Origin: Eutypella sp. D-1
Taxonomy: Eukaryota > Ascomycota > Sordariomycetes > Xylariales > Diatrypaceae
Direction of reading: 5' to 3'
Assembly (NCBI GenBank): GCA_023313575.1
Contig: JAJTTP010000004.1
Span: 310,001-374,000 of the forward strand
Length of the DNA: 64,000 bases
The translations under genes were made by a program, and so were the position numbers. The notes beneath the pieces were generated by a model. That model did not search any database. It saw only the letters and a list, made by a program, of their open reading frames with translations, and was not told the DNA's origin. Shown piece after piece: positions 1 through 44,297 of the stretch; positions within the stretch are counted from its first letter, which is position 1, and each line of letters starts with the position of its first letter.

Positions 1-295
1 GCTAACAAAGAAGCTACTGACTGTATGGCGACAGATAAATTGATTCGCAACTGGCCTGTTGTTGCAAGTAGAAGCCAGTCCATACCAGCACTACTGTAAA
101 GAGCAGTATCCATGGTGTTGCGCATCTTATTCTGGAACCATGAAAGGACCGATGCTGTATTCGGCCACTCTGAAAGTCAAAGTCGGATATCGAAGGGACC
201 AAGCGTTCGGTTTCCATACTATACATTGAAGAGTGGGATTCCTCTCTATGAAGATTGTCCCTTTGCGATGAGGAGGAGCCAACCAGTGATGACAT
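1..295 (-). CDS. UstYa-family (DUF3328) oxidase, N-terminal exon, runs off left edge
   Basis: Partial gene. I place the start at 295 (MSSLVGSSSS) rather than at an upstream in-frame Met, because the upstream 18 residues look like untranslated sequence. Exon 1 is 22-295 (91 codons plus one base) and is followed by a GTCAGT donor. The protein has a polar N-terminal tail, then one membrane segment at about residues 61-77 (PWILLFTVVLVWTGFYL), then a Tyr-rich end (IYLSPY). This is the layout of UstYa-type proteins, which are single-pass membrane oxidases that cyclise core peptides of fungal RiPPs such as ustiloxins. The phase-1 intron just after a Tyr matches the first intron of the related gene at 4909. 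The catalytic HxxHC motifs would lie in exons outside the window, so family assignment rests on the N-terminal layout and on the neighbours. Confidence 0.6.
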
Positions 296-1454
296 GGTGA
301 ACAATCGCAGGTGACTTGGCTCGAGGCAAAAAACCGAGAAAACATACACTCCTGACAGACTGATCCAACATATGGAGGGGCATCAGTGGATTGTTCGTTC
401 TATTGACTGGGCATGCCACCGATGCTGTTGTCATCCTTCTGTGATCGGGACATCACGGCCTCTGCTCGGTGGATATGCAATGCACACAACAATACATTAT
501 GCCGTCGTATTTGCCAAGCCATCTGTTGCTGCATGTCAGCATGATTTGTCAACTTTGACAGGTTGGTTTTCGTTGTGCATGAGGCAGCCAAATGCAACAT
601 TGACAGCTTACCCCTCGATGAAACCCAAGCCCTGTCTCATTGATACTTGCCAATTAATCAAAACGTCGAGAAGCATATGGTCACCTGTCAGGTTGCGGTA
701 AGAATAATTGACATGTCAGGGCCCACAGTTCCAATGCAGGATCCATTTTTGGCACTATAGCTATGCCCCTCGCTGCGGGTGGCCTTGTATCTGGTCTCTT
801 CCTTTTTCATCTTCACGTTTGCTAGATAGATTCACTGAACCCTGACATTGTGGTTGGTCGTATACCCACCATCGATCGCATAATCGGCTAAGTGATATCG
901 GTGAATATACCGCACTCGCTTGTCATAGTATGCCGTACCCGTTACATGACACGGTTACAATCCGGCCCGCCTAGCCTGTGTGGTGTGTGGTGTGTCAACG
1001 ATTCTTACCACGACTTGCCTGTATCTATCATGGGAAAAGCGTAGACCGCCTGTGACCAGCGGTTCAGCCGACATGAAGTACTTTATCCAATCGACGAACA
1101 ATACTACCATTTTGACGAAAAAGAAAAAAATTGATGATTCTGTTGAAATGGAGCATATGACTTGATTGACTTGAAAGTTCAGCCACTCTTAGATGGTGGG
1201 AGGAAGACATCCCTTATATACACATTGTGACGATGTCTCAGTCTTGACACTGAACTTCAAGAAATTCATCACGGAGATGCGTTTCTCAGTCACTACAGAT
1301 GCCCTGCTCCAGAGGAGGATTTTCAGGTTCTGAATTTCCATGAGAACGACAATTCCAATACGATGTGTCTTGCCCAGTAATTCAACATTAATGATGAATC
1401 ATTCTATTATCTGAAATCTGCCTAAGCCTACCGCCAATGGGATTGTCCGTATTC
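296..1454. other. Intergenic region between two ustYa-like genes
   Basis: No convincing gene. The small open frames on both strands have no recognisable domain. The region holds a decayed short LTR at 1141-1262. Beside it on the minus strand is a 54-codon open frame starting at 1118 (MVVLFVDW...) downstream of the LTR's TATA-like box. I do not call it a gene because nothing in it is recognisable. Confidence 0.5.
1141..1262 (-). mobile_element. Decayed short solo LTR (121-bp family, copy 1)
   Basis: In reverse complement this stretch matches the two intact copies at 6728 and 7396 over their whole length. It shares the blocks TTCAGTGTCAAGACTGAGAC and TATATAAGGGA. The end that should read TTCAACA/TGTTGAA is intact on one side (TGTTGAAATGG at 1141) but changed to TTCAAGA on the other. 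The possible 5-bp target duplication is imperfect (GATTC / AATTC). It lies inside the RiPP cluster between two ustYa-like genes. Confidence 0.7.
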
Positions 1455-2334
1455 TCAACTCCCATCATGACTGTGTGCGTCATGAAAGCCTATGCTATCT
1501 AGAGTCCCCTTGAATGAATTCTTCTTTGTCCAGTCAAGTATGCGATCAAAGTCACGGCACCTATGAGGTACTTCCACCAATTGATCCATCGTGTTCAGCG
1601 TCAAGTCCGCATTGCACATGAGCTCTTGTCTGATCCAGTCGATACAGTGCGGAGCGTGTATCGTCCGAAAGTCAGGAAGATGGTACTTATCTCCCTCTCC
1701 TGTAACAGCCCATTTCACCGCTTCCTGAGAACATGTAGAACATTAGAAACTAGATGGTTGTAAGATCAGATGCCATTAACATACCAGACAGTGCAGGCTG
1801 TGAAAGACACTCACTTGGTACAGCAGGTGACTGCTGTCAAGTGGTGAGGGCATAGTCGTTTGGTCCGGGACTATAGTGCTGTTTGAAGGGATTGACACGA
1901 TACCTCCTGAGTCTATAATTATAGTTAGTATTAAGTATCAAGAGACCAAAACTCCCATTGACATACCGGGAATGAAGCTCCTCCAAAAGGTGTTATTGTA
2001 AATTCTGGCTTCAATGTCTTCTTCGTGGAAGATTACATCGAACTCGACCGTTTTTGCATAATCGTGTAGGGCCATGTCTTGTAATGTTAATACTTCATGC
2101 ATTTGAGTCATGTATAAGATATTATCACTCACATGGATGAGGATTTGTATCTTGCCAGGCTTGGTGGAGAGACACACTCAAAAACAAAATAACGGAAAGC
2201 TCAACAATTTGAACTATAATCAAGATCAAACTTGAGGGTTTTGCAAGTGGCATACAAAATTTGGGCTGTCGGGGCGTCTCCTGATCGTCATCGTCGATTG
2301 GGAGGTACTTGCACGCTGAATCTGACAGTGCCAT
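1455..2334 (-). CDS. UstYa-family (DUF3328) peptide-cyclising oxidase
   Basis: Four exons: 2133-2334, 1967-2077, 1785-1912 and 1455-1724. They sum to 711 bases, 236 residues. A cytoplasmic tail rich in Asp is followed by a membrane segment at about residues 34-56. Both signature motifs of the family are present: HSLHC at 142-146 and HAPHC at 170-174, followed by CIDWIRQELMCNADLTL, the typical stretch after the second motif. The histidines and cysteines are thought to bind copper in UstYa-type oxidases. In known dikaritin pathways these proteins make ether or C-C bonds between side chains of the core peptide. All introns have GT-AG ends. The middle part lacks the usual PSPEVD element seen in the gene at 4909, so the two are diverged paralogues rather than recent copies. 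The likely substrate is the precursor encoded at 3663-3926. Confidence 0.88.
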
Positions 2335-3662
2335 ACTTGGAGACTATAATACATGAATGTCTGATGAATGTTTAAAAGGTATTTTGAAGAAAAGAAAAAC
2401 CAGCCTGACGCAACGAGTCTTCCTTCAGGTGAGAAGAAGACAGATCCTCAGCGCTCACTGCGGTCGGGGGGTTTGTAGCTATTAGCCACTCGTTCCGACA
2501 ATCGAATTGCGAGGTGGAATTTTATCTCTAGATATTTAGAGATATTCAAATCCACCCTAATATTGCACTTCTATGCACCAAATCGAAGGCGGGTAAGGTA
2601 AGGTGCAGATCGATTGGCACTTTTGCATGGCGCTATCTTTATGCAGCAACATGGATACTGTCTTGGCGCGGGCGGGCGACGGGCAGGGCGACGACGGAGG
2701 GCTGCCGAGACAAGTCGCGTAATTAAACATAACCAGAAAGGGTGATGGGAGTCGTGTGATCTCATATCGCCCGCAACCTCGACACTTCACCCACTTGCCC
2801 GCCAACCTATGATCAACGAGGTTGCATCGCAGGTTTCAACGAGGTGACATTGCAGGGTTCAACGACGACGCATAACCTCGACTCTCGAACCTCCTCTAAT
2901 AGGAGGTTTGCATAAGGGCATTGCATGATACACTGCAAACGTAGTCTGATTGGGTGAGTTCATAGATCCAGTAGGACAAGTAAATTTTTATTCCTGACCC
3001 AGTTTTGGTATTATGTTATGCGTTCAAGCCTCTAATCAAATGAATGCAATATGTGTACAGGTCTCAACTAGAGAAATACGGCCCGATTTCCTCTGCCGCT
3101 AGTCAAACAAGTGAGAGATGAGATGGCAGCATAAGAAGTATATATCAGCTAGGTAAACGACTGGCCAGCTAGAGAAATTGCTCTTTTGGAGAATCCGTGG
3201 CCCAATATACACATTAGGCCGTGCTCAATATGCTAGAGGGGTGAATGCCCCAAGATAATATAAGTGAGATGTTGCACGATCAGATTGTGAATCCAAAACT
3301 GGGAAGGGCAATCAAAAGCAATTCATCGTTGTAATCCTTTTAAGCTAAGTTGGAAAACTTCATAAGTCGGTTGAGCAGAGGTTGATGATAAATGAGCGTA
3401 TAATTTTGTAAAATCTCAATGCTACGTAACGAAAGTCATAACCTCTTCAAACCATAACAGACTAGCCTGGGCAAAATGAATGTGCAGTTGGACGGAACCA
3501 CAGTCAGAGAATCCACACCCCCAAACGTAGACGTAACACCATGATATATCCCAAGGAACAGGCCCTATGCTTTGTCAATTGACATCTAAACAGCATTAGA
3601 ACTTAATAGCGACTGACCTAGAAAGAACCTGCACATAGATGATCTCCTTTCAAGTTTCCTGC
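2335..3662. other. Intergenic region upstream of the ustYa-like gene
   Basis: No supported gene. At 2808-2895 there is a run of degenerate short repeats around the words CAACGAGGTT and CATAACCTCGA. It would contain the promoter of the minus-strand ustYa-like gene (start 2334) and the 3' end of the precursor transcript. Confidence 0.45.
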
Positions 3663-3926
3663 TTAGTTCTGATGGTCCTCGCGCTTGGCCTCGTGACCCC
3701 AGTTAACGAAGACGATGTCGGGCGCAGCCTCTTCGTCAGGCACAGCCTCCTCGCGCTTGGCCTCTTCACCCCAGCCATAGAAGAAGACATCAGGCACGGC
3801 CTTAGCATCGTTGTCCACAGTATGCACGTCGGAATTAGTTTCCGTATCAATGCTAGGCGTTAGTGGAGCAGCACTGCCAACTGCAGCAAAGATGAGGGTG
3901 GAAAGTTTGATAAGTGCAGGAATCAT
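3663..3926 (-). CDS. Secreted RiPP precursor with two Kex2-delimited core units
   Basis: Single exon, 87 residues. Residues 1-20 form a signal peptide (hydrophobic LSTLIFAAVG, small residues GSAA before Pro21). After a polar leader come two units of 24 residues that each end in EAKR, with Lys-Arg at 57-58 and 81-82, the site of the Golgi protease Kex2. The aligned parts are PDVFFYGWGEEAKRE (45-59) and PDIVFVNWGHEAKRE (69-83), so the constant pattern is PD-x-x-F-x-x-W-G-x-E-A-K-R-E. The aromatic stretches V47-G53 and I71-G77 are the likely cores. Such repeat precursors next to ustYa genes define the dikaritin type of fungal RiPP. The exact core limits and the final product are inference. A plain secreted KEX2-processed repeat protein (for example an adhesive or repellent peptide) is the alternative, but the three ustYa-like neighbours speak against it. 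Confidence 0.82.
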   Translation of the reverse strand: MIPALIKLSTLIFAAVGSAAPLTPSIDTETNSDVHTVDNDAKAVPDVFFYGWGEEAKREEAVPDEEAAPDIVFVNWGHEAKREDHQN

Positions 3927-4908
3927 GACGTCGAGATTATAGCGTTTTCTTATTGGCTATATGGCAGTATGAGATGGGCGTGTAAGATAGTCTGTGTGTA
4001 CTACAAGAATTTTTGAGCAGTGAAGGTATCGGGGTGGCATATATAGATAAGTTTACGGCTTGACAGTGTGTACGACCTTTGAACTCCATGAATTTAAACG
4101 GCTGTCTATGACAACTTTACGTCTGCACTCTGCAGCAAAGCACGTTTGCAAACATGATAGCACATGCCATGCGAATCGCTCTGGTATACGCATCATGCGG
4201 CACTACGCGCCGTCTTCCCGAATATTGACCGGAGTGTGAATCATGAGAACAAACCAGAAAATGCTTCTACAAACTCGATCTCAGTCCTCAGCCAGCCACC
4301 AAAACAGAGCGACATGGTATAACGTAGAAAACCCCGTTGTGCGATTTTGGCTGAGCTGAAATGCATTGACATCAGCAAATATCCGGGACAAGACTTGACA
4401 TTCCATGAGAGTAGCGATGCAGATATATCGGCCGCCGAACTGGCCGCCGAAGGGGATGTGCAGATACCTGCATAGATTAACACCTTCCTAGAGAAAAAGA
4501 AATTGCAGCTTAGGGATGTACCCGATTGGCACAGCAAATCAGCGAAGACGCAATGTTTATTGCACCATCATCGTCAATTACGCATTGAGAATCAGTGACA
4601 TTTAGAGTTCCGGATCTTCCCGTAAAATACTCGATTCAACACCTCCATTCGACCGCAACAGTGACCATGGAGTGGAATTGTGTAGCCAGGTGAGCACTAT
4701 CAAGCCCGTTAAGAGATATCAATCTAAGAACCAGTCTCTGGCTGCAAGTCTGAAGCTAAGCGCTCGGCGACAAGCATTTCACTTCTGTACCTCTTGTCGA
4801 CATATTGTTAGTTTTGATTCAACCCCACTTCGATCTTTTCCTTCGGCTGTTTGGGAAAACTCGACGAGCTTATGATAGTGACTCAGACACCTTCTCTGGT
4901 CCGCAGAG
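3927..4908. promoter_or_regulatory. Divergent promoter region of the precursor and a ustYa-like gene
   Basis: These 982 bases separate the minus-strand precursor (start 3926) from the plus-strand ustYa-like gene (start 4909). A TATA-like box CTATATATGCC reads on the minus strand about 110 bases before the precursor start (near 4039-4048). Near the middle, at 4430-4451, the 10-mer GGCCGCCGAA occurs twice with 12-base periodicity, a possible site for a pathway regulator. This is inferred from position only. An open frame at 4241-4537 on the minus strand has no recognisable domain and is left out. Confidence 0.45.
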
Positions 4909-5939
4909 ATGGATCGATTCGAGAGAGAAGCGCTGTTCAATGAACATTTTACACAGATTGAAGACCGCTCCGAAGAATGTCAAGATAGCAGTGGCTTCAC
5001 TAAGAAGCGATATGCTATTCATCATCCTATCGACCCGTGCATTGCTATTCCATGGTTTGTCGTTGCTGTCCTATTCATCGTCAATGTGTCGCTCCTAGCA
5101 AAAGTCCACAACCAAAATGGCACTGGATTTGCAACGGAGGCATTATATAGTAAGTCTACCCTCCTTAATGGCGGTTCGAGATGTCTTCCCAGTAAGGAAG
5201 ATAGTTGGTTGAAGCTTATAAGAATGAAATTAAGGCCCGGTTGAACATCTCATCCGGCATGAGGAACGGTTATTTCAGTCATCCTTGAGTCCGAACCTGA
5301 CTCCATATCAAGGAACCCCGTCTCCAGAGGTTGATGGAAAGTGGGAGGAACTCTATCTGAGTAAGTCTTCCATTGCTATATTACTTAACCCTCTAATGAT
5401 GGTTCAATCGTTGATGATATGCTTCATTGAGGAGTATAGTGGGTGATATAGCAATTTCTAAGCATGAAGCCAACAAGTTATTGAATAAGACAGCAATGGT
5501 ACGAAATGATCCACAGGAGAGATACATAATTAATCTTGATATCTTTCACTCTCTTCATTGTCTGGTGAGTAAGCTCGAGCCATGCTAAGATTTCCCTATG
5601 CTCGACCTTAACGACTGTCATGGCCACTGACTTTACTCAAAAGCATTCACTCCGGAAAGTTGTGTATTCAGATTATTACCTTGCGGAGTCTGATACGACC
5701 ATAAAAAAGCCTCCTGGCTTTGATGTGAACCACTTGGATCATTGTGTTGACCATCTCCGCCAGTCACTTATGTGCGGTGTAGATATATCGGTAATGCCCT
5801 TTGAAGGTCAGCGGTAACACATATACAAATTCCAGATATGGATATTAAGTAGTACTAACGCTCGACTGTAGTGAGAATCCCTCAACTGACCTCCCTTCAC
5901 TTGCTGGTCATTTCTCGACCACTATTCACATCTCCATAA
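4909..5939 (+). CDS. UstYa-family (DUF3328) peptide-cyclising oxidase
   Basis: Five exons: 4909-5149, 5235-5360, 5440-5564, 5644-5806 and 5872-5939. They sum to 723 bases, 240 residues. A cytoplasmic tail is followed by a membrane segment at about 44-64 (IAIPWFVVAVLFIVNVSLL). Next come the family elements YSPVEHLIRHEE (80-91) and TPSPEVDGKW (108-117). The two catalytic motifs are HSLHC (159-163), followed by an LRKVVYSDYY stretch, and HLDHC (194-198), followed by VDHLRQSLMCGVD. This is the most canonical of the three family members here. It is transcribed away from the precursor and shares a promoter region with it. The last exon follows a strong branch site (ACTAAC); without that splice the protein would end in GQR at 5817. 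Role by family: oxidative cross-linking of the core peptide in the endomembrane system. Confidence 0.88.
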
Positions 5940-6226
5940 GCGCACTACGAGTACAGTTTCGCACCAGCTTCATATTTCCCGCAGTACCTTGGTTAATCAA
6001 TACTCATTAGTGGTCAGACTCTAGACACAAGTACGTACCAGAGTTCGAAGTACCTCATATCTGCAGGAACTTTGACATGATTCACGATTGGGCTCGTCAG
6101 CATGCAGTAACGGAGGATTGCAACGGAGAAATCTTGGCAGAAGGAAATTTCACAAAAGAAATAAGACAAGAGGTATGTCACCAAGGTGACCAGGATTAGC
6201 GCCATAGGGTCCATTTCCTAGGAAGA

Positions 6227-6409
6227 TGTCACGGTTAGGAAAAGGACCTGATACCCCCTTTGGGGCTGCGCCAGGTGCGCCACTTGAGGCGCTGTGGGCT
6301 GCCCTATAAATGGGGCTCCCAGCCATCCAGTAGGGTAGTTATTCTTCTATTCTCCGTCTCCTAGAGGGCTCCCATAGGTCGCCTAGAATAGGTTCGGTTG
6401 AACGTGACA
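6227..6409. mobile_element. Solo LTR, 183 bp, with 5-bp target duplication
   Basis: The element starts TGTCACGG and ends CGTGACA, so the ends are perfect 7-base inverted repeats of the TG...CA type. It is flanked by the same 5 bases, GAAGA, at 6222-6226 and 6410-6414. Inside are a TATA-like CCTATAAATGG and a short hairpin (GCGCCACTTGAGGCGC). No internal retroelement genes are next to it, so it is the product of recombination between two LTRs. Orientation is not decided, although the TATA box suggests plus. Confidence 0.88.
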
Positions 6410-6727
6410 GAAGATATGTATCGGAGGACCAGGCCTAGATGGGTTTTCGTTGAATTCATCGATTTTACATATGAATTGCACTGCGCGTTTGATTTATTCG
6501 ATATCTATGGCCTTTACGGCATTTCTTATTATTACTACGTAATTACTTGAAGTTGAGGTCACGGTCACTGATGATCCCTGGTACTGTCGAGCATTCCAGC
6601 GATCTCCCGGGACTTCTTTCAACGGAATTTGTTTAAAACCCCTACAATTGACGTATAAATCTAATCGAGGGGATGGGTATATAAGTACATTCCTAATTAG
6701 CTTACTGTTAAGGGTTGGCTTTATTGA

Positions 6728-6848
6728 TGTTGAAGTTCAGTGTCAAGACTGAGACATCGTCACAATATGTATATAAGGGACGTCTTCCTCCCACCATCTA
6801 GAATAGCTGAACCTTCAAGTCAATCAAGTCATATACTCCATTTCAACA
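6728..6848 (+). mobile_element. Short solo LTR, 121 bp (copy 2)
   Basis: Starts TGTTGAAG and ends TTTCAACA, with inverted ends TGTTGAA/TTCAACA. It is flanked by ATTGA at 6723-6727 and 6849-6853. It contains TATATAAGGGACG, a likely promoter box. It is about 90% like the copy at 7396 and similar to the decayed copy at 1141. At 121 bp it is shorter than usual LTRs, which recalls TRIM/SMART-type elements. Confidence 0.9.
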
Positions 6849-7069
6849 ATTGATATGGCACGGAAACAGCCACGTAAATCGGCAGGGCAATACAGAAGAA
6901 TGGAAATAACTCTATACTTAATATCCTATGCCACTGAAACTTGTCGTGATAAACGCTATTTGGTATTAGATATATAAGACCCCCCTAGAGTCTCCTACCT
7001 CGTTTCTGTATCTAGGCCCTGTTACAAACCACTCATTCCAGGACTAGGGGGTTCCATAGATAGCAGCCA

Positions 7070-7265
7070 TGTAAGGATAAGGACATCGCCAAGACCCTCT
7101 TGGCGATGCCGTCTCCTTTGGTGGTGACCTTTCGAATATAAAAGGGAATGCGATCACGCCCATCTAGATGGTCTCTCCTTTAGCTAGCCATCGATCAATC
7201 CAAGTATTGTCTTTCTACATCTTCTATTATCTAAAATCAAGACCAGTGGTGGCGGCTTCGTTACA
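7070..7265 (+). mobile_element. Possible degenerate solo LTR
   Basis: Starts TGTAAGG and ends CGTTACA, nearly inverted. It holds a perfect 10-base hairpin (CATCGCCAAG / CTTGGCGATG at about 7084-7108) and a TATA-like AATATAAAAGGG, a layout like that of the 201-bp LTR at 8752. I see no target duplication, so the limits and the identity are uncertain. Confidence 0.35.
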
Positions 7266-7395
7266 GGTTGGTTCTTACTCTATGGTCCATTCAGAAAGGC
7301 CCAGGCGGGAAGGGGGCGTTGCTCGCGACATGTCCTGTTGTCGATTCTCATTTATTCCATTTTCGATTCTTGTAGCCATCTGATAAGGTTTTGAG

Positions 7396-7515
7396 TGTTG
7401 AAGTTCAGTGTCAAGGCTGAGACATCGTCACAATGTGTATATATAAGGGACGTCTTCCTCCCATCTAGAATAGCTGAACCTTTAAGTCAATCAAGTCATA
7501 CTCTCCATTCCAACA
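7396..7515 (+). mobile_element. Short solo LTR, 120 bp (copy 3)
   Basis: Starts TGTTGAAG and ends TTCCAACA. It is flanked by TTGAG at 7391-7395 and 7516-7520. It is the same family as the copies at 6728 and 1141, with a few substitutions and a small deletion (CCTCCCATCTAG instead of CCTCCCACCATCTAG). Confidence 0.9.
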
Positions 7516-8751
7516 TTGAGCAGGTATTTGAGCTTCGTCGTGTCCATCTCACACACTCTTTACTTACATTCTTTACTCTTGGTCTGAATAGAAAGATGTG
7601 TGTATGGGCCAGGATCGGAGCCTTACGGCCCACTGTACCTTGAAGCGCACCCCGGCGAAGACGTCGAGAAGGGGGTGGTCGACAAAAGCGGACGAGTGAG
7701 TGAGAAACCACGTACCCTAAGTTCAAAGACGAGTATATCAAGAAACGCGATGCCCATAATATCGAGAAAATTAGTCCCGATTGATTAATCCCTAGCTCCT
7801 GGTTGTGAATCCCTACTTGCATCACAGTCTTGTTCACGAGATAGAGATGACGTGGTCCCACTTCCTTACCCAGTTCCTCAAAGGCGTGTGAGAGCAGGGT
7901 GGTTCTGTTTCTATGGCTCATCCACCTACCCATTCATTCATTCTACTATTAGGTTGGTTGGTCGGGCGGTGGATATTCACGGCGCATCTTGTCGATATCT
8001 ATTCAGTTTTGATTTAAGTCCTGTGGCACACTGGCATGGATCCTGGGTAGATATATTCGCTCCAACTTGGTCATGTCCACCTCCCACACTCTTTAACTTT
8101 CTCTTTCATTCCTCTTAGGCTATGGGGGCCGTGAGTATGTCTGGGTGGTCTGTCGGAATAATACATCGTCGTTCATTTGATCATGTTACGTATGTGTACT
8201 ATGTGCACCACGCATAATTAGTTTAGGGACACCACTGAATGAAAATTTACTCCCTGATGCCTGCATGTGGCTTCGGAAGACTATCTCCCGGTGAATGCTG
8301 AAGTTTGTAAAGATACAACACGAGGTGGTGTTACGGTTGCACCATACCGTTGCACCATCGGGGCCAAAAGATTGGTGAATGATTGCAATGGTGGCAATCA
8401 TACTGGTGCTTACAGCCATATATATATGTGACCCCTATATGTGAACCCCTGGACATATAGTGGAGAACCTATACGGGTGACGAATCCGTAACAGGTGGCG
8501 ATAGACACACAAGAATATTGGTATTTGCTTGACTCGTTATACGACCGAGCCATACATTCCACTTAGCTGTAACTTGGATTTTACCCGAACAGACAAACTT
8601 CGAAGCTCTGGTGGCTAACTTGATAGCGAGGATGACCTTGACCGAGAGCTTGCCCAACTTTGGGCCTGTAACGAAGCCGTCACCACTGGTCTTGATTTTA
8701 GATAACAGAAGATGTAGAAGGGTTGAATACTTAGATTGATCGCTGGCTAGC

Positions 8752-8952
8752 TGTTGGTAGGTACGTACGTAAAGGAAAGAGATAATAACAAATAAAAGGT
8801 GGTGAGACTGGTGTTGTATTCTGGTCTAAGGTCTATCTATCTATCTGAGAGGGATACGGGCGAAGCCCGTATCCTTATATAAACGGGAGATAGGTACATA
8901 GGTACTTCCTACTGGTATGTGGGTCCATACCAGTGACCACTAACAACCAACA
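8752..8952 (+). mobile_element. Solo LTR, 201 bp, with 5-bp target duplication
   Basis: Starts TGTTGG and ends CCAACA. It is flanked by CTAGC at 8747-8751 and 8953-8957. It carries a perfect hairpin GGATACGGGC-GAA-GCCCGTATCC just before a TATA-like TTATATAAACGG, and a second inverted pair ACTGGTATG/CATACCAGT. No internal genes remain. Confidence 0.9.
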
Positions 8953-9244
8953 CTAGCTAAAATGAGAGACTATCTAAGATGGGAATGATCACATACCCTT
9001 TAATAGAAAAAGGGATGGATCGCAATCATCGAGAATTGCGATCCAGGGCACGTGATCGTTATCCCTAGAATGAGTGGTTTATAACACAACTGCTGAGGTC
9101 CAGCCCGTTTTTGAGAATCCACACATGGAGGTGGCATCAGCCATGTCGAACTCGCGGGCCAGAGAAACCCACCGTTGAGCTTTTCGGTCAGGAGGCATTT
9201 TGAGTAGATGCTTATGCTCTCCCGCCAGACCTTACTCTTTCCAG

Positions 9245-10151
9245 TTATCCACTTAGGATATATCGGTACCTGGCTTTCCAAAAATCCTTCCGCGTCTTGT
9301 TGACTGGTGCCTTTTTGACTGGTTCCTTCTCGCCGCCTAGTGCTTTTGCGTATAGGGGGCCACAGTCGTAGAGCGTGGGAGATTCGGTCTCCTCATTGAC
9401 GGCAAGACAATTCATGAACTCGGGATCGGCCATACTTATTCTCAGCCACACCAGAAGTATCCCGTGTTTTGCGTACGCTTTCCTATCATGACGCTCGATA
9501 TCCTCCTTATCTTTCTCAGCGCGCTCATCCCAGTCCTTGACATCCGGGTCGAAATGGTCGAGTTTTTCCGGCTCGTATTCGAGGGCCCAGGATATTACGC
9601 GCACGAAGATATGGTCACATTTCAACCACCCAATGTTGAAAAGGTTGGGGATGACATCGAAGAAAGCAGCAAAAAGATCATTCCTGAAAACCCGCCGACC
9701 TGTACCTACCAGGTCGGGGTAAGCACAATGCCGTTCTTCGTTTATTCCCAAATGATGGCAAGCCTCTGCAAAACATCGTCAATGTTAGATGATGGACCCG
9801 GCGGGAGCTGGGAGGATACTTACCAAGAAATCCATCCAAGCTGAGATTAAGTAGTTCCTGGTGATAGTCGCTCGGAGGGGCGGTATTCTTGAACACACCT
9901 AACACGCGAAGGACTACGTCCGTTTTTCCTTGTTCCATCAAGGCTCGCAGATGTGTCATGAGAAAGAAGAAGAAGTCTATAAAGACCTTGGGAGTTTCAT
10001 CTCCGGCCTCATCAAGAACCTTCTTGATAGCTTTTGGCAAAGAGTGGTCATCTTTGTCATCTAAGGCGTTATCTAAGGTTTGCTCGAAAGAAACGAGGAG
10101 GAGCGTGTAATGATCGCCCTCCTGCTCTATGGCCACGGAAGGAGTAGACAT
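9245..10151 (-). CDS. Tandem family protein A, unknown function
   Basis: Two exons, 9824-10151 and 9245-9765, giving 282 residues. The intron is phase 1 and joins G|AG to make Glu at residue 110. I do not recognise a domain. The N-terminal half looks helical with a hydrophobic stretch (VFIDFFFFLMTHL). Residues after it (NTAPPSDYHQELLNLSL) match the pattern TPSDDEQVKLGL in protein B. Near the C-terminus, YDCGPLYAKALGGEKEP matches YPCGELYSEEHGGVKEA of B, so A and B are clear paralogues. There is no signal peptide and no membrane segment that I trust. It is the leftmost of four related genes on the same strand. Confidence 0.75.
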
Positions 10152-11450
10152 GACGATGTCTGTGAGAGGGTATAGTAGATTATATCAAGAGAGTCGGAGA
10201 AGAATAAGGTAGTGAAAGTAGGTAATGGTGCCTGGCTGTATGAAGAGGAAGAAGGAAGAATCCTCATCAGTTAAGACCTGTGTATAAATAACATTTATAG
10301 ACAGCTAGATGGGGCAGTTCTCTTACTCGAGCCCCTAAAGGTAATTCCAGGCTAAAGGTCCTCTAAAATGACGAACAGACCAGACGCAAGACGGCTTTTG
10401 CTTGCTAGCTGCGCCGTATCACACACTTGATGTCTCGGATAGGTAGAGACAACTACGTGATTCCTTCAAGCTCGGTAGGGGCGTCATATACATCAAACCT
10501 GTTGGATCATATCAAAAGCCAAGTATTACTGGTGATGGCTTCGATCGTGGCTTATCTACCCTGTTCAGAAAAATGCTGCGTTGTACACCGAGGTATACCA
10601 AGTAAGGACAATCCCGTCTGACATTTTATGACTCGAAGCACCCCAACGTATGCTTCAACCAGGGCACCTTGCAACTAATTCGGTCAAGGATCTCTGGGCC
10701 TTCGTCCCTTGTGTATCCAGGAGGGGGGACGGGGTTAATAACTCGGTATTGGACCTTTGCCTAGGTATACCATACAGCTACCTCACTGTGACCCACTAGC
10801 ATCTATCTCTCACTCTGTACCAAAACCCCTGATTGGTCATAGAAAGTATAGTGTGCTCTGGCCCGTAAATAGGGACGGGGTACCAGCTAGCATTCCTGAC
10901 CTACCTAGGTATTAACTATCCCATGGTACTTATGAATCCAAAACCAAGCATTCGGAGGTACTTATGGTTTTCAACTAAGCCTCTATGGGACCGCCCTTTT
11001 CTCTGGCCCTATATTCCCCGGAACATTGCGGCGCACTCAGTGTACCGCGAGCATGATCAAACGAGTGGATATTTTGCTCTCGCAAGAGGCCCAATAATGA
11101 GGAACTAAGACGAACTAACACCTTCCCTATACCCTAAGCCCGAGAGGATGAAATGCAAATAGAGAACAAGCAGTGAATCAGCGGTGGTATAGCGAAGAAG
11201 ATCAAATACCCGTCTAGTATTCCACCGGGTCAGGCGAAGCGCTGGGAGTAGATGCACAGTAACTAGTATCAATATGCCACGTAGGCACTAGACAGCTTCC
11301 AAATCAACGAGAATGCCGTACGGTTAGAGCCCGGCCCGCACCCGAGAAACCGAGTAGAAGGGGTGGGGCCATCGCCTCGAAACTCGAAAATAAGCAATAT
11401 GGCTCCTGTGATTGCTGCGTTACTCGAACCTCCCTGGATATGAGCCTTAT
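10152..11450. other. Intergenic region between family genes A and B
   Basis: About 1.3 kb without a supported gene. It contains the upstream region of gene A and, at about 11050-11075, one copy of the repeated 3' flank (GCATGATCAAACGAGTGG) seen beside the other family members. Confidence 0.5.
11050..11090. repeat. Repeated 3' flank of the tandem family, copy 1
   Basis: GCATGATCAAACGAGTGG, about 360 bases beyond the stop of gene B. Weaker than the other copies after the first 20 bases. Confidence 0.55.
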
Positions 11451-12254
11451 TCATTCTGATATAACCAAGTCATGGTGATCTCTCGCCTTTCTGATCCAAT
11501 ACAATACTCGCTCACTGGTGAGCTTCGCCTCCTTGACCCCACCGTGTTCCTCGCTGTACAGTTCGCCGCACGGGTATGAGGGGCCATCATATGACAGATC
11601 GGTGCTAAATGAGGTGAGCTCATACAGCGTATCCGGCGAGCTAAACCACCATTTGATGCACTTCACAAGCTGGCGCCGGTTCGTTTTCGCCTCACCGTCA
11701 CTCTTGGTCTCGAAGGCTTGCTTGATCGCATCCACGAAGATTTCTGGGTTTTCCAACCACCCGATCAATTTGAGTCTGCTGGTGAATTCCAAAGACCCAT
11801 GGTAGACTTGGTATTTGCGGGCTTCCTTGACAACACCTGTCACCTCGCTGTCGGATGGGTGAAGTTTGTCGTCGGCCATCTTCTTGATTTCCTCTGCCGG
11901 CACATAACTGCAATTAGTCGTATGCAAGATAGAGGTTAAAAAAAGGAATGGCTCACCAGAACACTTCTCCGCGGCGAGGCCTAGTTTGACTTGTTCATCA
12001 TCGGAAGGCGTTCCCTGTGCCTTGAACGCGTCCATTACATTATGACACTTCCCGTTACGAATCAAGTATGAGAACTGTGTCGAACCGTAGAAGATGAAAT
12101 CTTTCAGAACTTCTTCTTCTTTTATCCCCTCGCCGAGAACGCTTAGGACAGTTGTAGCTAAGGTGTTAACTTCGTTTTTCACCGCTAGCCTGAATTCCTC
12201 ACGAAGGCGTGAAGGAAAATCCTCCGGTTTGCTGGCTACAGGAGGACCAGACAT
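11451..12254 (-). CDS. Tandem family protein B, unknown function
   Basis: Best model: exons 11957-12254 and 11451-11893, 246 residues. The 63-base intron (GTGAGC...GCCGGCAG) has no stop and is a multiple of three, so the unspliced reading also stays open (267 residues). Splicing restores the same phase-1 G|AG junction as in genes A and C, which is why I prefer it. The protein starts MSGPPVASKPEDFP. The FIFYGSTQFSYLIRNGK stretch corresponds to the FFFFLMTHLRALMEQGK region of A. The C-terminal YPCGELYSEEHGG block and the Trp-Ile-Arg-Lys end (VLYWIRKARDHHD) are shared with A. No known domain was recognised. Confidence 0.78.
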   Translation of the reverse strand: MSGPPVASKPEDFPSRLREEFRLAVKNEVNTLATTVLSVLGEGIKEEEVLKDFIFYGSTQFSYLIRNGKCHNVMDAFKAQGTPSDDEQVKLGLAAEKCSGEPFLFLTSILHTTNCSYVPAEEIKKMADDKLHPSDSEVTGVVKEARKYQVYHGSLEFTSRLKLIGWLENPEIFVDAIKQAFETKSDGEAKTNRRQLVKCIKWWFSSPDTLYELTSFSTDLSYDGPSYPCGELYSEEHGGVKEAKLTSERVLYWIRKARDHHDLVISE

Positions 12255-13311
12255 GCCGATGTGTGTAGAACCAAGAAGACTAGAGCTAGGGAAGAAGAGA
12301 AGTGATGTAGCTGAATGATCGTATTTGTTTGTCTGAAGTGGAAGAAATTCTGATCATCAGTCAAAGCCTGGGCTCGAGGCTTATAGAAACAGCCGCCCCC
12401 CCCTCCCCCCCCAGCTGACGTACTCATCGTCTTTGGTGACGTCAACCAGCCCATGAGTAACACGGATTTCTCATGTTGCCAGTGTATTACACGTTTGCTC
12501 CTTCGGATAATGCGCGCCCGGTGAAACAGAGGCGCTGAGGATTTGACTTTCGCTCGATAAGCGAGGATCAGACGATGCTGTTGGTTGTTCTGCCTTGTCT
12601 TTGTTCGACTGGTGGTGTAGCGCATGAGTTATCGATGAACCTTCGCATCAAGGTAACCAAGCGCGCGGTCCAACTCTTGCTATCTGTGATAACTAAGAAA
12701 GCTGTTAATACATATAGTATACGAGGCGCGGCAAACTGGGTGTCTTTGTGCCTCTACCGGATTACCACGTTACACTTGCACAACCCAAACATTTACTGGC
12801 AGGTGGTTTCACGGACTTAACGGTTAGCATCGAAAAAGGATCCACAGTTCAGGGGTTGCGCCAAGCGCACACAGCTCTGATTATGGTTTCTATGTAAACC
12901 CCCCCTTTTTTTCTGAATAATGACCCTCCAACTTCTAACATAGCACAACGCAATCAATGCGCTCGTAATATAATCAAACGAGCGGCGTGTCTCTGTCCTA
13001 AGCGAACCCGAGATTGAGAAACTAACAAAAACGCCTCCCCAGCCCGCCAACATAGTCAAATGAGTGGAAGTGTCTTGGCCCCAAGGGAACAAAAGACAAA
13101 GAAAGCAAAAAAGCAGACTACCAACCACTCTCATAAGATTAACCGGAAAAGGTGCAAAGCAAGAGTGAGTGGTGGATCGGCGCGGGTAGATCGGGAAGAG
13201 GGTTTCCTCTCTGGTACTCTACCAGATCTAGATTCCGAGTCCTAGTAAGCCCGAAGTGGGAAAGAAAAAAGTCGAGAGACCGCACCGGCAAGTTACCGAG
13301 CCAGGTCTTGG
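12255..13311. other. Intergenic region between family genes B and C
   Basis: No supported gene. It holds the upstream region of B, a C-rich stretch at about 12393-12413, and two adjacent copies of the repeated 3' flank at about 12966-13020 and 13051-13090. Confidence 0.5.
12966..13090. repeat. Repeated 3' flank of the tandem family, copies 2 and 3
   Basis: Two adjacent copies: TAATCAAACGAGCGG...GTCTCTGTCCTAAG (12970-13003) and CATAGTCAAATGAGTGG...GTCTTGGCCCCAAGGGAAC (13051-13090). They lie beyond the stop of gene C. Confidence 0.65.
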
Positions 13312-14027
13312 TTACTTCGAACTGCTACCTCCGCCTCTGGATGACTTATGGTGCTTCTGAGAGTGAGAATTCTTGGACTTCTTGGGCTTGTGCTCCTGAG
13401 TCGACTGGTACCCCTGAGGCGCCTGTTGTTGCTGGGCCGGCTGGTACTGCTGGCCCGTCTGGTACCCCTGGTACCCCTGGGACGCCTGGGACGCCTGGGA
13501 CGTAGAGGGCGCATTAGTCGTCTCATGCTCAGTAGCACGCTTGAGTACATCAATGAAGCTTTTGCAGCTCTTCTTGACGTCCTCTCGGCTCTGTACCATC
13601 ATAGCTTGAGAAAAGAATTCAGGGTCGGGAATGGCGGTGGTGTCCCTTGACCAACTCCGGATGTCCTCTATCAGAGAATGGATGAATCAGTGTTGACAGT
13701 CGACAGACCAGAGCAGGATCGAGGGAGAAGGGGTGACTTACGAAGAGCCTTATTTCCGGCATCCAGCAGAATCTCACGCACTCCCAGCTTGTTTGCGAAC
13801 TCCGCTGTATAGGCGTCTTCTATGTCGGACTGCTTGTGTTCACCGAGTGCGCTCCAGATTTTCGCAACCCACACGATAAACCATTTTAGAGAATCGTGGG
13901 GCAGAGAGGAAGAGTTCTCAGCCACCCAACTTAAGTAAATTGTTCCTTCTTCTTGCATTCCACCTTCCGAGGCCTTCCTGAACTCATCTTTGAGAAGCTT
14001 TAAGGTATCAGCCAAAGACATCGACAT
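13312..14027 (-). CDS. Tandem family protein C with Gln/Tyr/Gly-rich tail
   Basis: Two exons, 13742-14027 and 13312-13667, 213 residues. The intron is phase 1 (C|AG, Gln at residue 96), at the position equivalent to genes A and B. The N-terminal half is helical and acidic (TLKLLKDEFRKASEGG..., SLKWFIVWVAKIWSALGEHK). The C-terminal part is low complexity: Ser-Gln-Ala and Gln-Gly-Tyr repeats, then a Lys/His/Ser-rich end (KPKKSKNSHSQKHHK). Such a tail is typical of disordered, possibly self-associating proteins. I chose the Met at 14027 because upstream in-frame sequence is CTGT repeat DNA. Function unknown. Confidence 0.72.
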
Positions 14028-14116
14028 GTTGCCTAGAGTGTAAGAGAAAATACTAGTGAGAGATAGAGGTGAGAGATACAGTTGAGTGATAGAACTATCT
14101 GATCGATCGTGCTTGT

Positions 14117-14117
14117 C

Positions 14118-14151
<34 letters not shown>

Positions 14152-14255
14152 GAGCGAAAGAAAAAAATTCCAATCCTGAATCGAAGACCAAGACCCGATA
14201 TTTGATATTTATAATCATCCAGCCAGCCAGCCAGCCAGCCTCGACTCGACTCGAC
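14117..14255. repeat. Compound microsatellite (CTGT)n, (AGCC)n, (TCGAC)3
   Basis: (CTGT)n covers about 14117-14151. After 66 bases of unique DNA comes AGCC x5-6 at 14218-14240, then TCGAC x3. It lies just upstream of family gene C, in its promoter or leader. Confidence 0.85.
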
Positions 14256-14970
14256 GCCCGTACGCACGGCTGCCATCCTCGAGGCGGATCCCTCAATGCC
14301 GCGAGTCTGCGACCAAGTCGTGAGCAAGAGCACACACGAGAGTTTGCGTTAAGATGATGATGAGGACGATGGTACGGAATCAGATCCGCAATGTTTGATA
14401 GCTCCAAAGACTCGTCCCGTGGGGGGTGGAGTCGTCTTCGTACTCCCTGTATAAGCGAGGGGGATGTGACGATGCGATGCCTACTCGTGTTATTGTTAGT
14501 TGTGTTGTTTGCCGTATCTCCAACCCTCGCTTAGGTCTCCCTAGTCGTGTAGCGCAGGAGTGATCGATGGTTAGTTGGTTGGTTGGTTTGTTGGTAAGTA
14601 ACTAAGTTTTTCTTTCTGGTTTCCGCCACGCCACATGTAGCAGTAATAGCAATAGAAGAAACCTCACACAAGGGCAGCTAAGCGAGCAAGTCTAAACTTT
14701 ACGTTGCTGTTATCTATCTATAGCAACTATGAAGGGAGAGAAGGAAGGTTGTTGCATAGTTTACTTGTATATAGGGTTCTAGAAAGAAGTTTGTATCTTG
14801 GGGTAGGTATGCAATTTTCGATCTACCATATCAAGCCTACGCGGCTTGGACAACTATCGGGAGGTAGTTGTACGGGCCTATACCCCTTTTTCTCTCCACG
14901 AATCCCCCGTGCCCAAACACACACACTCACACGCCCCACTCATCATAGTATGACACACTCGACGGGTCCG

Positions 14971-15030
14971 CAGCATGATCAAACGAGCGGAAGCGTCTCC
15001 GTCCCAAGGGATCAGGGAACTCGAGAAAGG
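14971..15030. repeat. Repeated 3' flank of the tandem family, copy 4
   Basis: GCATGATCAAACGAGCGGAA, then GCGTCTCCGTCCCAAGGG and GGAACTCGAGAAAGG, beyond the stop of gene D. Closest to copy 3. Confidence 0.65.
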
Positions 15031-15197
15031 AAACAGAGCCAGGACCCGACCAATGCTTCCCCAACCCCCATGAATCGACATCGACCAGGCAAGTTGCAAA
15101 AGCAACGATGGGAGGTGGTCGTGGTGGCTGTAGACCAGCACGCGTAGCTAGGGAGAGCTAGAGATGGAGCTTTCATCCTAGCCAGCGCTTTGCCATG

Positions 15198-15915
15198 TTA
15201 GGTCTGAATCCAACCTGTCCTGTATACTACAAGAGCGTCTAGCGGGAGGAGCTTGACTTTCACGAACATGTGCATGAAGTCGGGCCAGCCACCCCAGAAG
15301 TGATGGGGGTATATTAGCTCGGGCTTATCACTACCACGCTCCGTCAGGGCCGGGTCGGGACAAGTGATAAAGTCCGCGTGTGGCCAGCGCGCGATTTTGC
15401 CTGTCGGAAGTGTTAGTGTTGTGTGCAACGGGTTAATAGTGGAAATTTTAACGGGGGGCCGGCAGCAGAAAAACCGAAGACAAAAGAAAAAGGGCGAACC
15501 TACTATAGCAAATTTGCCGGATAATATCTAGACGTTGCCGCTTTAGCACATGGCCATCGAACACGGACTTATAGTACTCCTCCACATTTTTCCGCTGCCG
15601 TTCACTCATGTACTTCCAGTTCGATGCGCCGTACACCAAGAGATCTTCGAGAGCGCTGTTGCCGTGGACCGGAAAATAGTGCAGCACGAACATGAGTACT
15701 GACGATGTTATGGTGCCGTCCTCGACGTATTGGCACAGCACGAACATGAGTACTGATAATTCCATGGTGCCGTTCGTGACGTAATGGCACAGCACGAACT
15801 TGAATTGTCCTGATTCTATGATGCCGTTCGCGGCGTTGCGAAATTCCATCTTCAGATGGACTTTCACCACTTCGGGTAAAGGGTGGTCGTCTCTAAACAC
15901 GACTTCGGACATCAT
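15198..15915 (-). CDS. Tandem family protein D with internal 18-residue repeat
   Basis: Two exons, 15504-15915 and 15198-15400, 204 residues. The intron is phase 1 (A|GC), as in A-C. Residues 40-57 and 58-75 are two copies of an 18-residue unit (FVLCxYVxxGTxxxSVLM), followed by a partial third from residue 76 (FVLHYFPVHG). The 54-base DNA repeat is visible at 15691-15798. After the repeats a helical stretch (KYMSERQRKNVEEYYKSVF) resembles the region before the intron in C. The C-terminus is rich in aromatic residues (HHFWGGWPDF). Two Met codons stand at the start, and either could be used. Membership of the family rests on strand, spacing, intron position and weak similarity. Function unknown. 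Confidence 0.65.
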
Positions 15916-16321
15916 GTCTGTGGAGGGGCGATGAAACTTATGGAGTACAAGGAGAGCTGAGTTGATAGAACCGAGGCATGGAACTTGGGGGCCGTGTCTC
16001 TAAATTGTCTGAGGGGGGGGATAGGGGGGAGAAAGAGTTTCGGGTTCTCGGTCCAGGGTTGGACTCGATATTTACAAATAAATGGGAGACACGACTGACA
16101 TACTTTACGTTCTTATAAATAGCAGCCAGAAACACGAATAATACAGTGTTTGCATGTTGGTGGCGGCGTGCATCAAAATGTGCCTTGGAAAAAGCACGTC
16201 CGGTGAGACAAAAGCGTTGGTCGATCTGACCTTTGCCCGACAATGGAGGATGGGATATCGCTGTTGGGTCGTAGGAGTTATATCAGGGAACCTCGCACAA
16301 AGGTAGCCAGGTGAGTTAACC
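15916..16321. other. Intergenic region between family gene D and MLH3
   Basis: 406 bases with the upstream region of gene D and the 3' end of MLH3. I see no gene; the minus-strand frame at 15938-16243 has no recognisable domain. Confidence 0.5.
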
Positions 16322-42450: not shown

Positions 42451-44297
42451 ATGCCTCCATCCCGCGACGACACGAAGTCGAAGACGCCTACCCGCCGGAT
42501 CATGGCTGTCGTCTCGCTCCTCGTGCTTGTAGCTGCGATCGCGGTGGGCACCACGAGCTACGGGAAGAAAAGCCGTTGCCGTTCCATTCCAGGCGATGTC
42601 GAGTGGCCAAGCGAGAGCGACTGGGCCGGCCTGAACCAGACTGTCGGCGGGAACCTTATCGCGACGGTGCCCATCGGCGCGGTCTGTCACCGTTCCCTGC
42701 TGGACAAGCCCAGCAACGAGTCCCATTACGATGAGGAGGCTTGTGCCGCGCTGCGGGATGCCTGGTTCTTCGCTACCACCCATTTACCTTCCCCGTCTTC
42801 ACCCATGTCCTACCAGTTTACCAATAACAGCTGTAACCCGTTCCTGGACCCGGACACCCCGTGTACTCTTGGGAACCACGTTGCGTACACGATCAACGCC
42901 ACGACGATCGCCGATATCCAGGCCGCCGTCCACTTCGTCCGGCGCCACAACGTCCGCCTCGTCATCCGGAATAGCGGGCACGATTACCTGGGCAAGTCGA
43001 CTGGCGCACACGCGCTCGCGGTAGTAAGTGACCTTCCTCATCGCCTCTCACGCCCAAAGCACTGGCCGTTGCAGATACTGACTCATATGACTTTTGAAAG
43101 TGGACTTCCCACCTCAACTCCATGGAGCTCATCCGCGAATACGACGACTCCGAGTACCGGGGTCCGGCCATCAAGATGGGCGCGGGCGTCAAAGGCGGGG
43201 ACGCATACAAGTTCGCCAGCTCCCACGGCCTCACGGTGGTCGGTGGAAACTGTCCGGACGTCGGTCTCGCGGGAGGCTACACCCAGGGCGGTGGCATCAG
43301 CATCCTCTCGTCCAAGTACGGCCTCGCCGCTGACCAGGTTCTCTCCTGGGAAGTCGTCACCGCATCGGGAGACCTGGTCACAGCCAGCCCAAGCGAGAAC
43401 GAGGATCTATTCTGGGCCTTGCGCGGAGGGGGCGGGAGTACATACGGCATCGTGGTTTCCATGACCGTCAAGGCGTTCCCGGACACGTTCTTCTCAACCG
43501 CTTCCCTGGCAGTCATCAACGACGGCAGCAACACAGACGCGATCTATTCGTCAATGGGGACCTTCTTCCGATCGCTCCCCAGCCTGGTGGACGCTGGTGC
43601 CTGGGTGGTTTGGGTAGCCGCACCGTTCGGGTTCATGATCACACCGGCTATGGTCGCCGGCGTTCGCTCGGCCGAACTCGACGAACTGCTCAAGCCCACG
43701 CTGACCAAGATGGACGAGCATGGCTTACAGTACCAGTACGCCTCCGCTGATCACCCAGACTTCCTGTCCAGCTACGGCTCCATGGCGTCGACCTGGAACG
43801 TGTCGGATTTTAACATGGGCAGCCGACTGATCCCGCGCGAGCTCGTGGAGGACGACGCCAGCGTCGAGGCCCTCGTGGATGCGGTGCGCTACATTTCGTC
43901 GCAGGCCCTCATGTCCGGCGTCTCCTTCAACGCCGCGAAGGCGGTCTCCTCGCCCCGCCAGGTAGCCGCCAACCCGTACCTGCGGAAGACGATCTTCAAC
44001 GCCGCCGTCGGCGCGCCGATCAACTACACCGATTGGGTGGCGAACCGGGCGGTGCAGGATAGGATCACACACGACCTTCTCCCGGCGCTGCAGCGCATCA
44101 CGCCGGAGGGCGGCGTCTACCTGAACGAGGCGGACTTCCAGGACCCGAATTTTACGGAGACCTTTTACGGTAGCCACTACGACAAGCTCCTAGCCATCAA
44201 GCAGAAGTACGACGCGGATGAGATTTTCTACGCCACGACCGCCGTCGGCAGCGGTCGTTGGGAACAGCGTCCGGATGGGCGGCTCTGTATAATATAG
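42451..44297 (+). CDS. Secreted or membrane-anchored FAD-linked (BBE-like) oxidoreductase
   Basis: Two exons, 42451-43023 and 43101-44297, 589 residues. The join gives HALAV-WTSHL. A hydrophobic segment at about 18-33 acts as a signal or anchor. The PCMH-type FAD domain has RNSGHDYLGKSTG with His177 and GGNCPDVGLAGGYTQGGG with Cys242. These are the two residues that bind FAD covalently in berberine-bridge-type enzymes. The region before the C-terminus (LNEADFQDPNFTETFYG, YDADEIFYATTAVG) is the BBE domain. Several N-glycosylation sites (NQT, NES, NNS, NAT) fit a secretory protein. Such enzymes oxidise alcohols, sugars or secondary metabolites; the substrate here cannot be told, and no biosynthetic genes adjoin it. 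Confidence 0.92.

Follow-up and report, generated by a model that had tools for sequence, protein, structure and literature searches.

A predicted minimal UstYa-type RiPP gene cluster with an aromatic-core precursor in Eutypella sp. D-1

RESULTS

Three UstYa genes and one precursor gene lie side by side

We analyzed a 64,000-nucleotide stretch of the genome of Eutypella sp. D-1 (contig JAJTTP010000004.1, positions 310,001 to 374,000; hereafter the window). At its left end lie three intact UstYa (DUF3328, PF11807) genes and one precursor gene in the order D(-) B(-) P(-) C(+), and all four reading frames are intact. MITE-like repeats are present within and next to the cluster. The genes are as follows.

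22..295, minus strand: exon 1 of UstYa gene D, start codon at 295; PF11807, 191.6 bits
1455..2334, minus strand: UstYa gene B, 4 exons (2133-2334, 1967-2077, 1785-1912 and 1455-1724), 236 aa, motifs HSLHC/HAPHC; PF11807, 75 bits
3663..3926, minus strand: precursor gene P, intronless, 87 aa, two repeats; six homologues
4909..6199, plus strand: UstYa gene C, 5 exons (4909-5149, 5235-5360, 5440-5564, 5644-5805 and 6011-6199), 280 aa, motifs HSLHC/HLDHC; PF11807, 162.3 bits

A preceding sequence-only reading had described B and C as complete genes with both HxxHC motifs, which was borne out with the very motifs it gave, and had proposed a third UstYa gene from its first exon. Leftward extension completed this gene D: its remaining exons occupy contig positions 309063-309943 (the gene ends at window coordinate -937), and its 287-aa product carries HALHC/HIDHC, both encoded left of the window. 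Exon 1 alone lies in the window, and the first motif is now corrected to HALHC. Gene C, which had been ended at 5939, extends to 6199.

All three enzymes scored above the curated PF11807 cut-off of 25 bits, as the UstYa assignment had called for; C and D were scored on earlier models of their last introns, which differ from the final ones in a few residues after the second motif. Both HxxHC motifs and two further cysteines are common to the three proteins, each of which has a single putative N-terminal membrane segment preceded by basic residues, as judged by hydropathy and flanking charge. No relative of UstYa with a solved structure was found by sequence at E values up to 1, and a monomer structure model of an orthologue of C was of low confidence (mean pLDDT 46).

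The last introns of C and D resemble stwintrons

The last intron of C and that of D resemble [D1,2] stwintrons and sit at the same protein position.

5806..6010, plus strand: probable [D1,2] stwintron of gene C, a 140-nt external intron whose donor is interrupted by an internal intron at 5807-5871

In both genes an internal intron fits between donor bases 1 and 2 of an external intron, an arrangement that the same test also found in 17 and 16 of 5000 shuffles. P0001, an orthologue of C, reads PFEWSE over the junction, supporting the joined frame for C. Alternative acceptors that keep the frame would allow one-step last introns in both genes; these were rejected because P0001 has PFEWSE there and both genes keep WSD. 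Judged from their sequence, C and D probably each contain a stwintron.

The precursor encodes two divergent aromatic cores

The features of the 87-aa precursor P are listed below, with conservation counted over P and its six homologues.

3867..3926, minus strand: putative signal peptide, residues 1-20, MIPALIKLSTLIFAAVGSAA, by hydropathy; 13 of 20 positions invariant in 7 sequences
3768..3797, minus strand: core 1, VPDVFFYGWG, residues 44-53; 8 of 10 positions invariant in 7 sequences
3753..3758, minus strand: Kex2 site KR following core 1; invariant in all 7 sequences
3696..3722, minus strand: core 2, PDIVFVNWG, residues 69-77; 2 of 9 positions invariant in 7 sequences
3681..3686, minus strand: Kex2 site KR following core 2; found in six of the seven sequences and missing from the truncated P0008

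Core 2 may also be written with its preceding residue, as (A)PDIVFVNWG. The secreted repeat precursor with Kex2 sites that had been read from the sequence was recovered together with its KR sites, but it has two repeats only and no dibasic site ahead of core 1. Candidate ORFs were given a repeat score for a pair of similar segments with a dibasic site at the end. When 114 kb of the contig was searched for ORFs of 50-300 aa beginning with ATG, P ranked top with a score of 60; the runner-up (56) is a low-complexity ORF without a signal peptide. The maximum in 40 dinucleotide shuffles was 31, falling to 16 when the shuffled ORFs had to carry a crude signal peptide. Judged by these scores and by its six homologues, P is not a chance ORF. 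A search of the genome at E values up to 1 returned no second copy of the precursor.

Core 1 is conserved across three families

The six precursor homologues come from Hypoxylaceae, Xylariaceae, Diatrypaceae and further samples, the named hosts being Daldinia decipiens, Xylariaceae sp. FL0662B, Eutypa lata and Hypoxylon rubiginosum (P0006). The best conserved parts are the signal peptide and core 1 together with the KR that follows it: core 1 is near-invariant (VPD[VA]FFY[GAN]WG) and core 2 is degenerate. Tryptophan is kept in all seven copies of core 1 and in five of the seven copies of core 2, and the tyrosine of core 1 is replaced by valine in every copy of core 2. The core-1 sequence, in three spellings, and two locus tags gave no mention in the literature searched.

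On the enzyme side, the full-length product of gene B has 80% identity with P0009 and 79% with P0010, that of gene C has 84% identity with P0001, and the two B and two C orthologues together retain 79-84% identity. A longest contig of 452,870 bases is given alike for the precursor, the B orthologue and the C orthologue of Daldinia decipiens, which are therefore probably linked. In Xylariaceae sp. FL0662B the precursor and the B orthologue both give 213,409, with locus numbers 588529 and 588532. Equal longest-contig figures thus point to an apparent precursor-enzyme linkage in both of these genomes. The best 10 of 2007 candidates included no orthologue of D, and no UstYa partner was recovered among the matches listed for the Eutypa lata or Hypoxylon rubiginosum precursor; among these matches, therefore, the full four-gene set is seen only here.

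Search for tailoring genes in the flanks

Further tailoring genes had been suspected to the left, and the search turned up none in the parts scanned there. ORFs of at least 130 aa were listed over 50 kb of the left flank and eight were scanned by profile; they match ankyrin repeats, a V-ATPase a subunit, bZIP, CENP-N, TatD, a beta-lactamase fold, ribonucleotide reductase and a protein kinase. Six-frame scans of contig 304400-309101 (4.7 kb on the left) and window 6200-11101 (4.9 kb on the right) gave no Pfam match to a methyltransferase, transporter, reductase or peptidase, nor any other tailoring enzyme; farther out, where ORFs were scanned, genes built of short exons could have escaped. The 20 flanking ORFs scanned included no methyltransferase, transporter or peptidase, and none of the 20 PF00264 (tyrosinase) matches of the genome is on this contig.

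On the right, profiles were run on ten ORFs from 9.2 to 26.8 kb: seven had no Pfam match, one gave weak MutL-type matches below the cut-off and two are CN_hydrolase pieces. Two more ORFs encode a chorismate synthase and an FAD/BBE-type oxidoreductase. The latter (window 43098-44294) is the nearest oxidoreductase seen; because it lies about 37 kb right of the cluster, it is not thought to be a member.

DISCUSSION

Relation to known fungal RiPP systems

The sequence-only reading, in which three UstYa enzymes and a precursor cut by Kex2 form a UstYa-type RiPP cluster, is backed by profile scores, conserved homologues and apparent linkage in two genomes. A RiPP precursor linked to DUF3328 enzyme genes places the locus among dikaritins in the broad sense, in which DUF3328 is described as class-defining (PMC12048977), and the precursor has the signal peptide (by hydropathy) and the repeated cores with Kex2 sites, here two, of that group. 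The strict five-gene definition does not describe it, as tyrosinase, methyltransferase, and transporter or peptidase were not found within the areas scanned. Like the ustiloxin and phomopsin clusters, which are dikaritins in the strict sense, the locus combines a secreted Kex2-processed precursor with DUF3328 proteins; unlike them, it showed no tyrosinase, methyltransferase, peptidase or transporter in the areas scanned, its core differs from YAIG and from the phomopsin core, and it has two divergent cores versus the 8 peptides of PhomA or 16 of UstA (PMC6514808).

The closer parallel is asperipin-2a, whose reported cluster consists of aprA, aprY, aprT and aprR, with no tyrosinase among the four genes, and whose single UstYa-type enzyme AprY is essential and proposed to carry out sequential macrocyclization (PMC6514808). 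Both systems place an aromatic-core precursor (cores FYYTGY in asperipin-2a) beside a UstYa-type enzyme without a tyrosinase (PMC6514808). The present locus differs in that it has three UstYa genes where asperipin-2a has one, the scans nearby showed neither a transporter nor a reductase, its core FFYxWG contains tryptophan, and its repeats number only two. Victorin is a RiPP of broadly the same kind, crosslinked through a non-tyrosine aromatic, phenylalanine to leucine (PMC9233826), but it has a different core and extensive further modification.

P also shares with the Kex2-processed repeat proteins described in PMC7329392 and PMC6339444 a signal peptide and repeats that terminate at Kex2 sites, and tryptophan-bearing repeats beside DUF3328 genes have already been reported there as type P-3 (PMC7329392). 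The first survey defines such proteins by a minimum of three tandem repeats, each 8 residues or longer (PMC7329392), and the second requires at least three repeats (PMC6339444); P has two, and both rules would therefore skip it. A putative ustiloxin-like RiPP cluster, found with PhomA, OphMA and GigA as templates, is described in Hypomontagnella, H. rubiginosum and H. pulicicidum (PMC8403587); compared by description only, it occurs, like homologues of our precursor, in Hypoxylaceae, and H. rubiginosum also has the precursor homologue P0006. Taken together, the kind of pathway is already known, and the peptide family of core VPD[VA]FFY[GAN]WG seems undescribed.

A proposed pathway and its alternatives

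We consider it highly likely that the locus is a minimal, asperipin-like UstYa-type cluster making a crosslinked aromatic-core peptide, as predicted from sequence; the product of the gene set is probably short and crosslinked, with many aromatic residues. The 87-aa precursor would enter the secretory pathway via its putative signal peptide. By analogy with the family, the three single-pass UstYa proteins would have cytosolic N-termini and lumenal catalytic domains and would act as binuclear copper oxidases, their copper site expected at a dimer interface, through HxxHC(x)nHxxHC, a motif reported to bind two coppers per monomer in CctR (PMC12435403). They would oxidatively crosslink the aromatic core (VPD)FFYxWG in the secretory lumen; Kex2 cleavage after KR and trimming of the ends by general exopeptidases would follow, an order likewise borrowed from the family, and the short crosslinked peptide would be secreted. 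Core 1 would be the main product template and core 2 a diverged, partly dispensable copy.

Alternatively, P might yield a linear pheromone- or signal-like Kex2 peptide, with the UstYa neighbours hydroxylating it or acting on another substrate. Most of the Kex2-processed repeat proteins surveyed (6120 of 7878) have no DUF3328 neighbour (PMC7329392), members of DUF3328 are also reported to hydroxylate and chlorinate (PMC12048977, PMC12435403), and core 2 lacks tyrosine. We nevertheless regard this as unlikely: three UstYa genes flank P, enzymes of the B and C types appear to be linked to the precursor in Daldinia as well, and the mating-factor-annotated Kex2 proteins of that survey are described as lacking DUF3328 genes with three exceptions (PMC7329392).

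The two repeats, the degenerating core 2 of some species, the tailoring genes not found close by and the MITE-like repeats inside and beside the cluster would fit the decay of a once larger dikaritin cluster that lost its tailoring genes and most core repeats, but four intact reading frames, a core 1 near-invariant over three families and B and C orthologues still 79-84% identical make this very improbable. We hardly credit at all a reading of the 87-aa product of P as a small secreted protein of ordinary kind, whose internal similarity has nothing to do with the UstYa genes: P is short, with two repeats only, and is annotated as a "hypothetical protein" in four named relatives, yet its repeat score exceeds all 40 shuffles and its conservation centres on the signal peptide and core 1 with KR.

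Within the preferred reading of a crosslinked aromatic-core peptide, we tentatively suggest, as a rather doubtful extension, that the UstYa enzymes might build a tryptophan-centred crosslink in a peptide family kept across three Xylariales families, because tryptophan persists in 7/7 core 1 and 5/7 core 2 copies and the core 1 tyrosine is valine in all seven copies of core 2. Such a linkage, if true, would be unlike the tyrosine linkages of ustiloxin, phomopsin and asperipin and the phenylalanine linkage of victorin. On this doubtful reading, the even conservation of the peptide would fit a widespread role in signalling or defence better than that of a toxin peculiar to one species.

Implications

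RiPP clusters of lichen fungi are described as mostly species-specific (PMC12048977), and biosynthetic clusters common to several Hypoxylaceae as few (PMC8403587). The core of P is near-invariant over Hypoxylaceae, Xylariaceae and Diatrypaceae, and the peptide is therefore testable in several strains. Both surveys ask for three repeats or more and P has two, so that further short precursors may go unnoticed in the same way. With three UstYa genes, one short precursor and tailoring genes not found close by, the cluster offers a compact system for the role of each UstYa, and it is suited to asking whether the family can crosslink tryptophan.

Gene content and extent of the cluster

The window (310001–374000) sits in a 3.09-Mb contig of the 48.5-Mb Eutypella genome, the closest named relatives by protein search being Xylariales such as Daldinia decipiens. 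Four genes are found at its left end, in this order:

D, minus strand, UstYa (DUF3328) gene, the greater part of which falls left of the window
B, minus strand, UstYa gene
P, minus strand, secreted two-repeat precursor gene
C, plus strand, UstYa gene

The D, B and C proteins comprise 287, 236 and 280 aa and scored 191.6, 75 and 162.3 bits, respectively, against the PF11807 profile (cut-off, 25 bits); C and D were scored with the last intron as it stood before correction, and the corrected models differ by a small number of residues downstream of the second motif. All three carry two HxxHC motifs (D, HALHC/HIDHC; B, HSLHC/HAPHC; C, HSLHC/HLDHC), have another two cysteines in common and show, by hydropathy, a single putative membrane segment near the N-terminus. 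The predicted structure of a C orthologue was of low confidence (pLDDT 46).

P encodes 87 aa and has no intron; a hydrophobic N-terminus is followed by AVPDVFFYGWGEEAKREE and AAPDIVFVNWGHEAKRED. When ORFs in 114 kb were scored for two similar stretches each ending in a dibasic site, P ranked highest with a score of 60 (maximum over 40 shuffles, 31), and the runner-up (56) was a low-complexity ORF without a signal peptide.

Eight of the ORFs listed for the left 50 kb were scanned, and their matches are to a V-ATPase a subunit, ankyrin repeats, bZIP, CENP-N, TatD, a beta-lactamase fold, ribonucleotide reductase and a protein kinase. Among 12 ORFs scanned in the right flank, the sole tailoring-enzyme-like one was a FAD/BBE-type gene ~37 kb away. 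A six-frame Pfam scan of contig positions 304400–309101 and window positions 6200–11101 gave no biosynthetic enzyme, and none of the 20 tyrosinase matches in the genome lay on this contig. Within the regions scanned, the cluster thus consists of four genes.

Several minus-strand ORFs without a Pfam match occupy window 9248–16000; two of them (9248–10184 and 11454–12353) are distantly related, a possible tandem orphan family. A MITE-like repeat of ~120 nt with TGTTGAA/TTCAACA ends occurs at 1141–1261, 6728–6848 and 7396–7515 (41 genome matches, query included). A 55-nt inverted repeat (7213–7267/8665–8719; 96% complementary, 1.4 kb spacing) is possibly a transposon remnant.

Conservation of the precursor and its probable linkage

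All six candidates from a search of 5.77 billion proteins were P homologues (E 3e-28 to 6e-21), including those of Xylariaceae sp. FL0662B, Eutypa lata, Hypoxylon rubiginosum and D. decipiens, which represent Xylariaceae, Diatrypaceae and Hypoxylaceae. Eight of the ten core-1 positions are identical in all seven sequences (VPD[VA]FFY[GAN]WG), compared with 2 of 9 in core 2, which suggests that core 1 is what selection maintains. Core 2 retains Phe and Trp in five sequences; in the other two (one of them incomplete), Ile replaces Phe and Trp is absent. All seven core 2 copies carry Val at the Tyr position.

The D. decipiens precursor (F4813DRAFT_159965) and its C (160010) and B (367087) orthologues, assigned by BLAST, share one longest-contig figure (452,870), as do the FL0662B precursor (588529) and B orthologue (588532; 213,409). 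These matching figures suggest that clustering of precursor and UstYa genes is conserved in relatives. Two enzyme searches (2 matches among 255 candidates; 10 among 2007) yielded two C and two B orthologues, with no D orthologue and no UstYa enzyme for the Eutypa or H. rubiginosum precursor. These absences count against conserved clustering; the searches depend on shared exact words, so orthologues may have been missed.

Proposed maturation and relation to known families

The DUF3328 hydroxylase CctR forms a homodimer anchored in the membrane; it uses O2, and each monomer binds two copper ions through HxxHC(x)nHxxHC (PMC12435403). Asperipin-2a (core FYYTGY) requires AprY, the single UstYa-type enzyme of its cluster, which is proposed to close the rings one after another (PMC6514808). 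By analogy with CctR and AprY, D, B and C would crosslink FFYxWG inside the secretory lumen, and Kex2 would cleave the precursor after KR. Core 1 offers Tyr and Trp for such a crosslink.

DUF3328 genes adjoin 1758 of 7878 Kex2-processed repeat proteins in a survey that required at least three repeats and noted Trp-bearing types among the DUF3328-linked proteins (Umemura 2020, PMC7329392); a 2019 secretome survey also set a three-repeat minimum (PMC6339444). An ustiloxin-like RiPP cluster was located in some Hypoxylaceae with known precursors as templates, the real diversity being described as beyond estimate (PMC8403587); the H. rubiginosum cluster of that study is a possible counterpart of ours. 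Three core-1 spellings and two locus tags had no match in the literature searched, which covered few subscription papers. Of the definitions cited in PMC12048977, the DUF3328-based one includes our cluster among dikaritins, whereas the five-gene one excludes it.

PF11807 gave 21 exon-level matches among 24 candidates scored genome-wide, and further precursor candidates were seen:

L016:6714–7523 (contig 45), a Kex2-repeat candidate with eleven PAYVWAS cores, three UstYa matches lying some 4–11 kb away; a six-frame scan of L016:3000–7801 gave no Pfam match
L025:6186–6755 (contig 5), a Kex2-repeat candidate with five DYIYTDV cores, adjoining a UstYa gene
L020:4597–4995 (contig 28), a second two-repeat candidate (VIYPDY and VIYHDY), adjoining a UstYa gene
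L022:3762–4058 (contig 13), five QYSPAALRIAE-like cores, a UstYa gene nearby, the signal peptide probably set apart by an intron

Probable stwintrons in two UstYa genes

The last intervening sequences of C and D are probable [D1,2] stwintrons, in which an internal intron splits the external donor (G|T):

Window 5806–6010, gene C, 205 nt
Contig 34 positions 309243–309416, gene D, 174 nt

The same decomposition arose by chance in 17 (C) and 16 (D) of 5000 shuffles. P0001, a 269-aa protein related to C, reads PFEWSE across the junction, matching the prediction; its 986-base source contig is too short for C's four introns and is therefore probably a transcript. P0002, an annotated D. decipiens protein, terminates in PFEVV, an end that, judged from the protein, fits the one-G-retained missplice described for stwintrons (PMC12403724). 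A word search of a paper on Hypoxylaceae stwintrons (PMC9024468) returned neither DUF3328 nor UstYa. Since they occupy the same position in both paralogues, the stwintrons perhaps predate the duplication. Their one-step missplicing would shift the frame ahead of a conserved cysteine.
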